Source of the DNA: Acidobacteriota bacterium | GTDB taxonomy: Bacteria; Acidobacteriota; Terriglobia; Versatilivoradales; Versatilivoraceae | Direction: 5' to 3' | Length of the DNA: 39,184 nucleotides | Assembly (NCBI GenBank): GCA_009841055.1 | Contig: VXMN01000086.1 | Span: forward strand, 1-39,184 | Part shown: positions 13,822 to 18,977 of the stretch, one piece after another | Numbering within the stretch: position 1 is the stretch's first letter | Layout of the letters: each line of letters starts with the position of its first letter | Program-made: the position numbers and the translations under genes | The notes under the pieces: model-generated | Told to the model about the DNA's origin: nothing | What the model saw: only the letters and a program-made list of their open reading frames with translations | The model's database searches: none

Positions 13822-14751
13822 ATGGCCAAGCTCCAGCTGCAAAGACTCGGTGGGGTCTGGTCGGCTACCCCGACGCCGTTTACCAAGGATTTGAAGGTCG
13901 ACACGGCGAGTGTCAAGAATATGGTGGAGCACCATCTGCGTCTGGGAGTTCGGGGACTCTTCCTGGCCGGCACTTGCGGAGAGGGCCCCTGGATGCCGGA
14001 TGTGGAGCGACGGCGACTGGTAAGGGCGGTCCGCAAATATTCTCGAGACCGGTTGATGATCGCGGTGCAGGTCACCGACAACTCGGCCAGTCGCGTGGTC
14101 GCCAACATTCGAGCCGCCAAGGCGGATGGAGCCCAGATTGCCGTGGTCGCCCCGCCGCTCTTTTTTCTCAATGCCAATCCCCAGACATTGACCAACCACT
14201 ACCGCCAGATCCTTCGGGAGAGTGAGTTGCCTATTGGCATCTACGATCGCGGACGCCACAGTTCGGTGGTCATCCCGGAGTCTGTTCTCGCTACCATTTA
14301 CGCCGACCGGCGCGTGATCATGGTCAAGGACAGCTCGTCCGACAATCAGCGACGAGAGATCGCCCTGGCCGCGCGGCGGAAACGCCCCCGGTTGCGGCTG
14401 CTCAACGGTAATGAATTTCAATGTCTGGACTACTTGAGAGCCGGATACGACGGCCTGCTGCTCGGCGGTGGAATCTTCACGGGCTACCTGGTGGCCCAGA
14501 TGATCCAGGCGGTTGCAGCCCACGACTATGCCCGCGCCGAGAGAATACAGACTCGCACGACGCGCATGCTCTACGCGGTTTATGGCGGCGACCGGCTGGC
14601 TTGCTGGCTCTCGGGCCTGAAGCGCCTTCTGATGGAGTTGGGCGTGTTCCGGTACTGGTCCAACTACCTGGGCTATCCTCTGGACCGTGCCTGTGTCCGC
14701 AACATCAAGCGGATCGTCGCCGAGAACCGGGACGTGCTGTTGCCTTCCTGA
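13822..14751 (+). CDS. Dihydrodipicolinate synthase family protein (DapA/NAL-like aldolase)
   Basis: This 309-residue TIM-barrel protein has the class I aldolase features of the DHDPS/N-acetylneuraminate lyase superfamily: GVWSATPTPF at 11-20, AGTCGEGPWM at 49-58 (in place of the usual GTTGE), catalytic-type Tyr141 in IGIYDRG and Schiff-base Lys169 in VIMVKDSSSD. AGGAG lies seven bases before the ATG. The Cys in the GTTGE loop and the non-biosynthetic context argue for a catabolic lyase/aldolase rather than lysine-pathway DapA. It releases or condenses pyruvate or a related keto acid by family rule; the actual substrate is unknown. It lies 66 bp after the propeller gene, with a repeat-containing gap downstream. 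Confidence 0.88.
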   Translation: MAKLQLQRLGGVWSATPTPFTKDLKVDTASVKNMVEHHLRLGVRGLFLAGTCGEGPWMPDVERRRLVRAVRKYSRDRLMIAVQVTDNSASRVVANIRAAKADGAQIAVVAPPLFFLNANPQTLTNHYRQILRESELPIGIYDRGRHSSVVIPESVLATIYADRRVIMVKDSSSDNQRREIALAARRKRPRLRLLNGNEFQCLDYLRAGYDGLLLGGGIFTGYLVAQMIQAVAAHDYARAERIQTRTTRMLYAVYGGDRLACWLSGLKRLLMELGVFRYWSNYLGYPLDRACVRNIKRIVAENRDVLLPS

Positions 14752-14940
14752 TCCGAACCAGGCCGGTTGACGATTGCCCGGTTCCGTTCCGAGATTACCG
14801 CAACCCCGAATCCAATATTCAGATACGGCTATCTCCCCCGTCGATCGTTGCCGTTGCCTGCCTCCATTGGTGGATTCCGATTGAATCGAGCACCAGGGAG
14901 AACGGGCTCGATCCCGACAGGAGGCGGTGGCGGTGAATTC

Positions 14941-14954
14941 GGGAGGCCGGGTTG
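14941..14954 (+). promoter_or_regulatory. Relic Shine-Dalgarno and TTG start of hyuA
   Basis: GGGAGG at 14941-14946 lies five bases before a TTG at 14952. The frame TTG AAT TTC GAG ACG TCC GCT would run straight into hyuA codons (AAC ATC CCT CAG) if the element at 14974-15103 were removed. In the present sequence that frame stops at a TAG at 15012-15014 inside the element. Confidence 0.65.
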
Positions 14955-14971
14955 AATTTCGAGACGTCCGC

Positions 14972-15103
14972 TAGCCCGCATTTCTCACCAGGGGGCGCCC
15001 AGCACCGTGTGTAGGCTGAAGACTCCATACAAAGCGCCGTAAGATGTTAAACACGAAACCTTGACTACCGTAGGCTCAGCGGCCTGGTGAGAAATGCGGG
15101 CTA
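14972..15103. mobile_element. 128-bp MITE-like element with TA duplication
   Basis: The ends are perfect inverted repeats of 19 bp (GCCCGCATTTCTCACCAGG at 14974-14992, its complement at 15083-15101), each bounded by TA (14972-14973 and 15102-15103). The TA dinucleotides look like a target-site duplication, as made by IS630/Tc1-mariner-type transposases. The interior of about 90 bp has no open frame and no similarity I recognise. It is therefore a non-autonomous miniature element, or the end-to-end remnant of a larger one. It separates hyuA from its apparent original start; the present ATG of hyuA (15094) lies in the right repeat. No transposase gene occurs in this window. Confidence 0.75.
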
Positions 15104-17201
15104 ACATCCCTCAGGGCGCCGTACGCATTGGCGCAGACGTTGGTGGCACCTTTACCGATGTGGTGGTATTGGACGGGCAGGGAAATCTATCCACTCACAA
15201 GGTGCCGTCGACTCCTCCGCACTATGAAGAGGCCGTCATCCAGGCCATCGGGGCCTGGCTCGGCTCGACAGCGATTTCCGGCGCTCGCGTGAGGGAAATC
15301 GCCCATGGTACGACGGTAGCCACCAATGCCGTGCTGGAGCGTCGGGGGGCACGAACGGCGCTGGTCACCACCAAGGGGTTCCGGGACGTTCTGGAGTTGA
15401 GGCGGATTCGGGTGCCGGTGCTCTACGACTGGTTCTTCCAAAAGCCGGGGGAACTGGTGGAGCGCTATCTGCGTTTCGAGGTGGACGAACGCATCCTAGC
15501 CGACGGGGACGTTCAGGTAGCCCTGCGGGAGTCGGAACTTTGGGAACTCAAGAAAAAGCTGGAACAAGAGGCGGTGCAATCGGTGGCCGTTTGCTTTCTC
15601 CATGCCTACGCCTACCCTGAACACGAGCAAATGGCAGGTCGGTTCCTGAGGAAGCACCTTCCCCATCTGGCGGTTTCGCTCTCTTCCGAGATACTGCCCG
15701 AGCGCAACGAGTATGAGCGTACCGCCACGGCCGTGGTCAATGCCTACGTTCGCCCGGTGATGCGTGGCTATCTGGGTGCGCTGCGGAGACATCTGCGCCG
15801 GATGGAGATCGAGGCGCCCCTGCTCATCATGCAATCGGCCGGGGGCCTGACGCCCCAGGAAGACGCTGCCATGCGTCCCGTTTTCGTTCTGGAGTCCGGT
15901 CCCGCGGCAGGGGTCCTGGCAGCCGCAACCACCGCAGGCAAGGCAGGTCTGCCCAACCTGATCACCTTCGACATGGGAGGAACCACGGCCAAGGCCTCCA
16001 TGATCGAAGAGGGCCGGCCCGGCTACCATTCCGAATATGAAGTCGGGGCCTCCCTGTCCACCGGCAGCCGGCTCATGGGCGGCAGCGGAGAGCTCATTCG
16101 CGCACCCAGCCTCGACATCGCCGAGGTGGGGGCCGGAGGTGGGAGTATCGCCTACCTGGACCGGGCCGGCGGGCTCCATGTCGGTCCCCAAAGCGCCGGA
16201 GCTGTACCGGGACCTGCCTGCTACCGTCGGGGCGGCAAGGAACCGACAGTTACCGATGCCAACGTGGTCCTGGGTTATATCCGGCCCGGGCCGCTGGCCA
16301 ACGGGGAGGTCCATGTCGACCCGGAGGCTGCGCGGCGAGCCATTCAGGACCGGATTGCCGGCCCCTTGGGAATAGGGCTGCTGGAGGCTGCCGAGGGGAT
16401 TCACCGCATAGCCAACACCCGCATCATGAAAGCCCTGCGTGAGGTCTCGACCGAACGGGGGAGGGACCCCCGCGAGTTTGTGCTGATGGCCTTCGGAGGT
16501 GCGGGTCCGATCCACGCCGCGGGCCTGGCTGAGGAACTTTCGGTTCAAGGGGTCATGGTTCCGGCGCTGCCGGGCTTGTTCAGCGCGCTCGGTCTGCTCT
16601 ACTCCGACGTCGAGCGCCACGGAGTCCGGAGCTGCCTGCTGGCCATTGAAACCGTTCGTCCCCGGGAAATCGAGAAACTGCGAGAGACACTGGAAAACGA
16701 CATGCTGGCCTGGTTCCGGCGAGGGCACTACCCGGCGGAACGAGTTCGGCTCGCCTGGAGTGTCGATATGCGGTTTCGGGGACAGACCTCGGAAATCAGG
16801 GTCCCGCTACCCGGCGGGACACTCACGCCTCGGGATGTCGACACCCTTCGCCAGACCTTTGAGGACGAGCACGAGCGGCTCTACGGACATCGGTCCGCCG
16901 CCGGACACACGGTCGAAGTACTGGCGGTGCGCCTGGTGGGGAAAGCAGTGCGGGACCGGATGGAGGGGGTTCTTGGACCACCTGAGCTGCAGGGTGAGAC
17001 GGCCCCGAGCCGTACCGCCTATTTCGGCTCTCGATGGGGGTCCATTAAAGCCCCCGTGGTCACCCGAACCGCTCTCCGGGAGGTCACCCGGGGCCCCCTG
17101 TTGATCGACGAGTATGACTCGACCGTGGTGGTTCCGCCCGCGACCCGCGTCTGGCTCGACGACCTTCAGAATGTCGTGATGGAAGGAGTCGACTCCCACC
17201 T

Positions 17202-17205
<4 letters not shown>
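15094..17205 (+). CDS. hyuA: Hydantoinase/oxoprolinase subunit A (HyuA)
   Basis: The 703-residue protein is full length for the hydantoinase A/oxoprolinase family. The ATP-binding ASKHA-type fold shows VRIGADVGGTFTDVVVLD at 10-27, HGTTVATNAVLERRGARTALVTT near 71-93, LIMQSAGGL, and ITFDMGGTTAKASM near 290. The enzyme pairs with HyuB to open 5-membered cyclic amides such as hydantoins, 5-oxoproline or N-methylhydantoin in an ATP-dependent way. The usual family start is only two or three residues before IGADVGG. Here the extra MRANIPQGAV derives partly from the terminal repeat of the element at 14972-15103, which also supplies the ATG; the ribosome site (GGTGAG) is weak. Its stop overlaps the start of hyuB by four bases, so they are translationally coupled. 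Confidence 0.92.

Positions 17206-18977
<1,772 letters not shown>

Follow-up and report, generated by a model that had tools for sequence, protein, structure and literature searches.

In the genome analysed here, an IS1380-type MITE has inserted in the first codons of hyuA, and HyuA probably now starts at an ATG within the right terminal repeat of this element, with a Shine-Dalgarno-like GGTGA of the same repeat as its ribosome site. An intact host gene seems in this case to draw its ribosome site and start codon from the end of a mobile element, and how the locus looks without the element can be seen at the empty sites of two relatives. According to the course of events that we propose, the MITE would have landed at a CTAG/CTAA target, leaving the old ribosome site and its TTG to open a frame of 20 codons that stops inside the element.

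The window (the whole stretch of DNA that was analysed, 39,184 nucleotides) is contig 10 of its source assembly (4.3 Mb, 374 contigs, completeness 93.8), and the source genus belongs to the Acidobacteriota, Terriglobia, Candidatus Versatilivoradales. Members of this genus live in sponges. In the following, G000 denotes the window's own genome and G001 to G006 six congeners, while C stands for contig and L for locus. Among the congeners, G001 is OX638355.1, a Terriglobia MAG, and G005 is Candidatus Versatilivorator vitaminiformans, whose contig C301 (6404 bp) corresponds to JAPVWS010000037.1. The features of the locus are collected in Table 1.

Table 1. Features of the hyuA locus, in positions of the window
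Feature	Position	Strand	Basis
Dihydrodipicolinate synthetase (DHDPS) family protein (PF00701), upstream gene	13822..14751	+	Pfam, E 1.2e-29
Old Shine-Dalgarno sequence, GGGAGG	14941..14946	+	Same spacing to TTG kept in G003 and G005
Old TTG start (14952-14954) and 20-codon leader frame	14952..15014	+	TTG aligns with TTG in G003 and G005
Left 4-bp target copy, CTAG	14971..14974	.	Target-site statistics (95 paired copies) and sequence
MITE, 126 bp	14975..15100	.	Repeats, copies, target border, empty sites in G003 and G005
Left terminal inverted repeat	14975..14992	.	Inverted-repeat search
Right terminal inverted repeat	15083..15100	.	Inverted-repeat search
GGTGA, Shine-Dalgarno-like, within right repeat	15086..15090	+	Sequence; anti-SD duplex energy
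Putative new start codon ATG within right repeat	15094..15096	+	Sequence; in-frame TGA at 15088-15090 just upstream
Right 4-bp target copy, CTAA (three of four bases equal to left copy)	15101..15104	.	Target statistics and sequence
hyuA, 703 aa, hydantoinase A / oxoprolinase	15094..17205	+	Pfam; congener orthologs; dN/dS
hyuB, hydantoinase B	17202..18950	+	PF02538, E 1.9e-175

The insertion at hyuA and its empty sites

The open reading frame of 703 aa is assigned to HyuA by three Pfam domains, Hydant_A_N, Hydantoinase_A and Hydant_A_C. At its 5' end, two arms of 21 nt each (14972-14992 and 15083-15103) are 100% complementary and stand 90 nt apart; when the 501-bp region was shuffled 300 times by mononucleotides, the longest inverted match was 16, with zero-loop palindromes counted. 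The element is a MITE in that it is short (126 bp), devoid of a transposase and bounded by perfect terminal inverted repeats. The net insertion amounts to 130 bp, the element proper to 126 bp. Deleting the 130 bp in silico yields a single unbroken HyuA frame from the TTG, in agreement with the first-pass annotation, which had also rightly placed a GGGAGG and a TTG upstream, the annotated ATG inside the right repeat and the stop of the old frame at 15012 (the leader frame ends after 20 codons at a TAG, 15012-15014, within the element).

Orthologs of hyuA are present in all six congeners and are 83-95% identical, that of G002 being cut by a contig end inside the gene and therefore unreadable at its 5' end. 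The element is found at this place in none of the five readable congeners. Indeed, GGGAGG and GTACGC lie 180 apart in the window but 50 apart in G003 and in G005, a difference of exactly 130 bp, and the empty sites of these two congeners retain the GGGAGG, the TTG start and the downstream codons. The flanks of the window, joined with one target copy kept, have 73 of 90 bases equal to G003 and 72 of 90 equal to G005. Because the 26 bases that flank the insertion (14955-14970 and 15101-15110) are poorly conserved in these congeners, with 13/26 equal to each of them, the exact sequence before insertion stays approximate. These comparisons bear out the insertion that was the main proposal of the first-pass annotation, the other half of which, initiation at the new ATG, we infer from the reading frame. 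Among the readable congeners the insertion is specific to the lineage of the window, a timing that the empty sites suggest.

The 3' end of the DHDPS-like gene and the following spacer can be aligned with their counterparts in the congeners. Neither the element nor the GGGAGG-TTG segment is present in G004, G006 or G001, even though G004 carries the closest full-length ortholog of hyuA. Judging from their sequences, these three of the five readable congeners must begin HyuA at other codons, and their lack of the segment indicates that the 5' end of hyuA is fluid within the genus. Variation also affects the spacer that separates hyuA from the DHDPS-like gene (positions 14750-15094 of the window compared with L092, L094 and L097).

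Copies, target site and transposase type

The end repeat occurs at 43 sites of the window's genome with up to three mismatches, and its reversed control at none. The further copies foreseen by the first-pass annotation are thus present in this genome: four (C147, C7, C51 and C100) align over 115-131 bp with 81-87% identity, and four longer relatives of 243-245 bp lie on C369, C92, C121 and C189. The two outcomes that the first-pass annotation had named as refuting it, conservation of the sequence upstream of hyuA (checked in the readable congeners) and a lack of other copies, were both looked for, and neither was observed. By eye, the short form resembles a shortened version of the 243-245-bp elements. 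Several copies are situated within about 250 bases of contig ends (C27, C51, C100, C147 and C326 in G000; C1, C5, C6 and C9 in G004); assemblies apparently tend to break at the repeats, so that the true copy numbers may be higher.

The copy of C92 (249 bp with flanks), used as a query, matched all seven genomes of the genus that were searched, none of five others of the family and none of 49 of the class. Furthermore, the exact 19-mer is found in at least 118 stretches of public genomes, and the matches listed include, by record titles, Gammaproteobacteria, Alphaproteobacteria, Planctomycetota and Verrucomicrobia; single solo matches may be due to chance. End pairs spanning 240-245 bp were found in 19 of the first 80 listed 19-mer loci, five of these 19 belonging to the genus (L155, L163, L164, L177 and L224). 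The set of 95 paired copies includes 240-246-bp elements at 19 loci outside the genus; elements of this size with the same ends exist in Gammaproteobacteria. An alignment of ten hand-picked elements, three of them from the genus, has a mean column identity of 59% with some interior patches kept. L181, L201, L206, L218, L224, L012 and others, from Acidobacteriota and Gammaproteobacteria, are 240-246-bp elements with the same ends and some interior patches in common. This sharing between the two groups would reflect either horizontal spread or mobilisation by a common type of transposase. A plasmid collection queried with a 246-bp stretch of L181 gave no match, and among the papers listed for this repeat, for MITEs with start codons, for IS1380-linked MITEs and for Versatilivorator there was no report of the element.

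The first-pass annotation had described perfect inverted repeats bounded by TA and a mobile unit of 128 bp. The repeats and the mobility of the unit stand; its size had to be revised to 126 bp (14975-15100), and TA had to be abandoned as the target duplication. At the 190 ends of the 95 paired copies, the repeat is followed on its outer side by A (179), then T (147), then C (125) or T (49), and it is this near constancy that moves the border one base further inward. A duplication of 4 bp, mostly CTAG, emerges instead: the two copies are identical in 38 of the 95 pairs, whereas 500 re-pairings gave 22.75 on average and never more than 29. Of the pairs from outside the genus, 27 of 51 have perfect 4-mers (re-paired mean 19.76, maximum 26), and in the genus alone 11 of 44, above the re-paired mean of 4.96 and equal to the maximum of 11 that was also reached in 500 re-pairings. 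At hyuA the two copies, CTAG and CTAA, match at three of four bases. A MITE with a TA target, of the IS630/Tc1-mariner type, to which the TA border of the first-pass annotation would point, is a very improbable reading of the element: TA does stand on both sides in 54 of the 95 pairs, but this equals the level of re-pairing (mean 50.6, no clear excess) because TA belongs to the common end context, while the 4-bp test exceeds re-pairing and the transposase remnants between the same ends are of another type.

These remnants match PF13701, which we take to be the model for the IS1380-type transposase. They were found in four of the six genomes searched, above the cut-off in three; the single fragment of G000 scores below it. 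Of the eight fragments, three, in L270, L271 and L273 (G003, G004 and G005), are flanked by the same terminal repeats and form defective elements of 714-758 bp with ends at 0-2 mismatches of 16. Two longer frames were inspected: next to that of L278 (354 aa), a similar end (2 mismatches of 15) was recognised on one side and none on the other, and that of L277 (466 aa) is without these ends. Among the PF13701 loci inspected there was no intact parent with exactly these ends. When the open reading frames adjoining the ends were clustered in search of a parent insertion sequence, no transposase was recognised by eye among the 11 listed, which resemble host genes or spurious frames. A 1.2-kb end pair in L165 was likewise rejected as a parent element, its six listed open reading frames being host-like or spurious by eye, with no transposase. 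The ISAzo13-type transposase (PF07592) had no match in G000, in a search that was uninformative since its control had no match anywhere either.

Members of the IS1380 family make target repeats of 4-5 bp. The elements described here share with this family the PF13701 remnants between the same terminal repeats and the short direct repeat of the target; they differ from it in that the window copy carries no transposase and that the loci inspected include no intact full-length parent whose ends are exactly these. We regard the hyuA element as an IS1380-type MITE whose mobility presumably depended on a transposase encoded elsewhere. For IS1247, a member of the family, Table 2 of PMC3281130 gives a direct repeat of 5 bp.

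The repeat end as a start and the state of hyuA

Both ends of the element read outward GGTGAGAA-ATG-CGGGC, which combines a Shine-Dalgarno-like sequence with a start codon. This composition of the ends, the likeness to IS1380 and a hairpin able to hide the start go beyond what the first-pass annotation had noted. The GG of GGTGA stands 6 nt before the ATG, and an in-frame TGA-GAA directly precedes the ATG at 15094. The energy of the anti-SD duplex is -7.4 kcal/mol for GGTGA, against -9.8 for the old GGGAGG and -11.0 for the site of G003, as computed with the textbook anti-SD, which was used because the three G000 hits of a 13-base 16S pattern did not resemble a 16S end by eye. The first 16 codons, which reach five codons past the beginning of the HyuA domain at residue 11, contain no other in-frame ATG, GTG or TTG, and for this reason hyuA probably initiates now at the ATG at 15094. 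The new N-terminus would read MRANIPQ... and would be four residues shorter than that from the old TTG.

The dN/dS of hyuA is 0.170-0.187 for the five pairs that include the window and 0.120-0.200 for the ten other pairs, which shows purifying selection on this gene, whose frame is intact. These values do not amount to proof of expression, because the insertion may be young and a recent insertion would not alter dN/dS even if translation of the gene had ceased.

In an RNA that reads through the element, the two arms are predicted to pair as a 21-bp stem, with a fold strength of z -2.23 (6 of 200 shuffles fold as well). A fold of this strength is what one might expect of a conserved regulatory hairpin, such as a riboswitch or a leader, rather than of a mobile element. 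We hold this to be extremely improbable, since the sequence has no Rfam match up to E 1, has many copies elsewhere and is absent at all five readable orthologous sites.

For the MITE, the predicted stem would hide the new start: in the read-through RNA, the probabilities of being unpaired are 0.000 for the Shine-Dalgarno-like sequence and 0.001 for the ATG. The same values are predicted with a ribosome parked at the leader stop. They rise to 0.170 and 0.831 in an RNA that starts after the left arm, and to 0.380 and 0.629 when the left arm is held open, as by ribosomes on the leader frame. Hence hyuA would be expressed only if transcription began within the element or if the left arm were opened, as ribosomes translating the leader frame might do. 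No sigma-70-like promoter was seen in 14700-15200, and with the start hidden by the stem this leaves a promoter that escaped notice, opening by leader translation, or low expression.

The predicted stem could also silence hyuA. According to this alternative, useful translation is lost through the hairpin and the displacement of the ribosome site, the ATG is no more than the choice of a gene caller and the frame is intact since the insertion is recent. The burial of both the ribosome site and the ATG in the predicted read-through RNA and the lack of a promoter-like site in 14700-15200 agree with it, as do the perfect terminal repeats, which suggest a young insertion, and the five hyuA-like places in the window's genome, with which a loss could be tolerated. 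We nevertheless judge silencing unlikely: the 703-aa frame has no stop, the dN/dS of the pairs with the window lies inside the range of the other pairs, and the Shine-Dalgarno-like sequence and the ATG are well spaced and in frame, although the frame alone would be right by chance in one case out of three.

Repeat ends at other genes and related systems

The ATG is retained in 299 of 328 outward ends. Open frames of at least 60 aa in the frame of this ATG were found at 69 outward ends (26 in loci below L151 and 43 from L151 on), a list in which some loci from L151 on belong to the genus, three have the ATG changed and some sites appear in more than one locus. Ten of these frames, picked by eye, were submitted to Pfam, and eight had a domain. 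In these eight genes and in hyuA, other starts were then sought as far as the fifth codon after the beginning of the domain. No other start was present in hyuA, the Fe-S protein (L181), the Nudix gene (L165), the D12-class adenine methylase (L152) and purS (L049). For ligD (L209) the alternatives are GTG codons at 41-42, without a visible Shine-Dalgarno sequence, and for the glycosyltransferase (L268) a GTG at 12, inside its domain. On the other hand, waaA (L035) and the DUF3108 gene (L039) were discarded as end-started genes, as they possess other in-frame starts.

A paired element precedes the genes of L181 and L209, only a solo exact end those of L152 and L268, and several ends the Nudix gene; the cases of L152, L268 and Nudix are weaker than those of L181 and L209. 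A few other genes, encoding the Fe-S protein, LigD and the Nudix protein, seem to start on such ends. Among these candidates, hyuA is the one gene with an empty-site comparison in its favour; in the case of L181, the best matches to the Fe-S gene elsewhere, two in number, are only 36-38% identical, too little for a comparison of the site.

The purS gene was dropped as a second case: five of the six congeners listed have the same or a similar start, which is thus native. In G005, GGTGAAAA stands before ATGAAGGCC, and the purS start of the window's genome (L049, G000 C304:1518-1538) is similar to the outward repeat end (GGTGAGATATGCGGGCTAG) although no element is present there. As purS demonstrates, ordinary gene starts may also match the outward end, if less closely.

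At the 190 ends of the 95 pairs, outward frames of at least 50 aa number 51 in the ATG frame, 79 in +1 and 15 in +2. Because there is no excess of the ATG frame, in-frame capture is to be seen as an occasional outcome that the end sequence allows, not one shown to be selected. A broader and doubtful proposal is that the repeat is a portable translation-initiation region, which would use its two outward GGTGAGAA-ATG starts to re-start genes in several phyla, and that translation of the leader frame at hyuA would open the hairpin and thereby gate the new start, as an attenuator made by one insertion.

Insertion elements are well known as suppliers of promoters. Among small repeats, MITEAba12 is derived from ISAba12, and BOX repeats are built of box modules. 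The case described here makes it testable how often transposon ends serve as mobile translation starts and alter the N-termini of proteins. It would be a variant of a known exaptation of small repeats, that of MITEAba12 ends and of BOX start codons. In the sections of PMC6382973 that deal with MITEAba12 of Acinetobacter, the ends are noted to hold start codons, with a possible fusion with neighbouring genes; this is another element, and those sections present the fusion as a possibility, with no gene supported by an empty-site comparison. BOX repeats of Streptococcus pneumoniae are described, in the relevant part of PMC3049150, as giving a start codon to an expressed open reading frame that reaches past the repeat. 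Unlike BOX, the hyuA element is bounded by terminal repeats of 18-21 bp and lies at the 5' end of a conserved gene.

Finally, a copy of 245-246 bp lies upstream of the same gene, ileS-like by eye, in three species: L012 (G000 C92), L062 (G004 C19) and L063 (G006 C147). The ATG of the repeat is in frame with this gene, and a second in-frame ATG follows 17 codons further. The three copies probably go back to one old insertion shared by these species, which may have extended the protein at its N-terminus.
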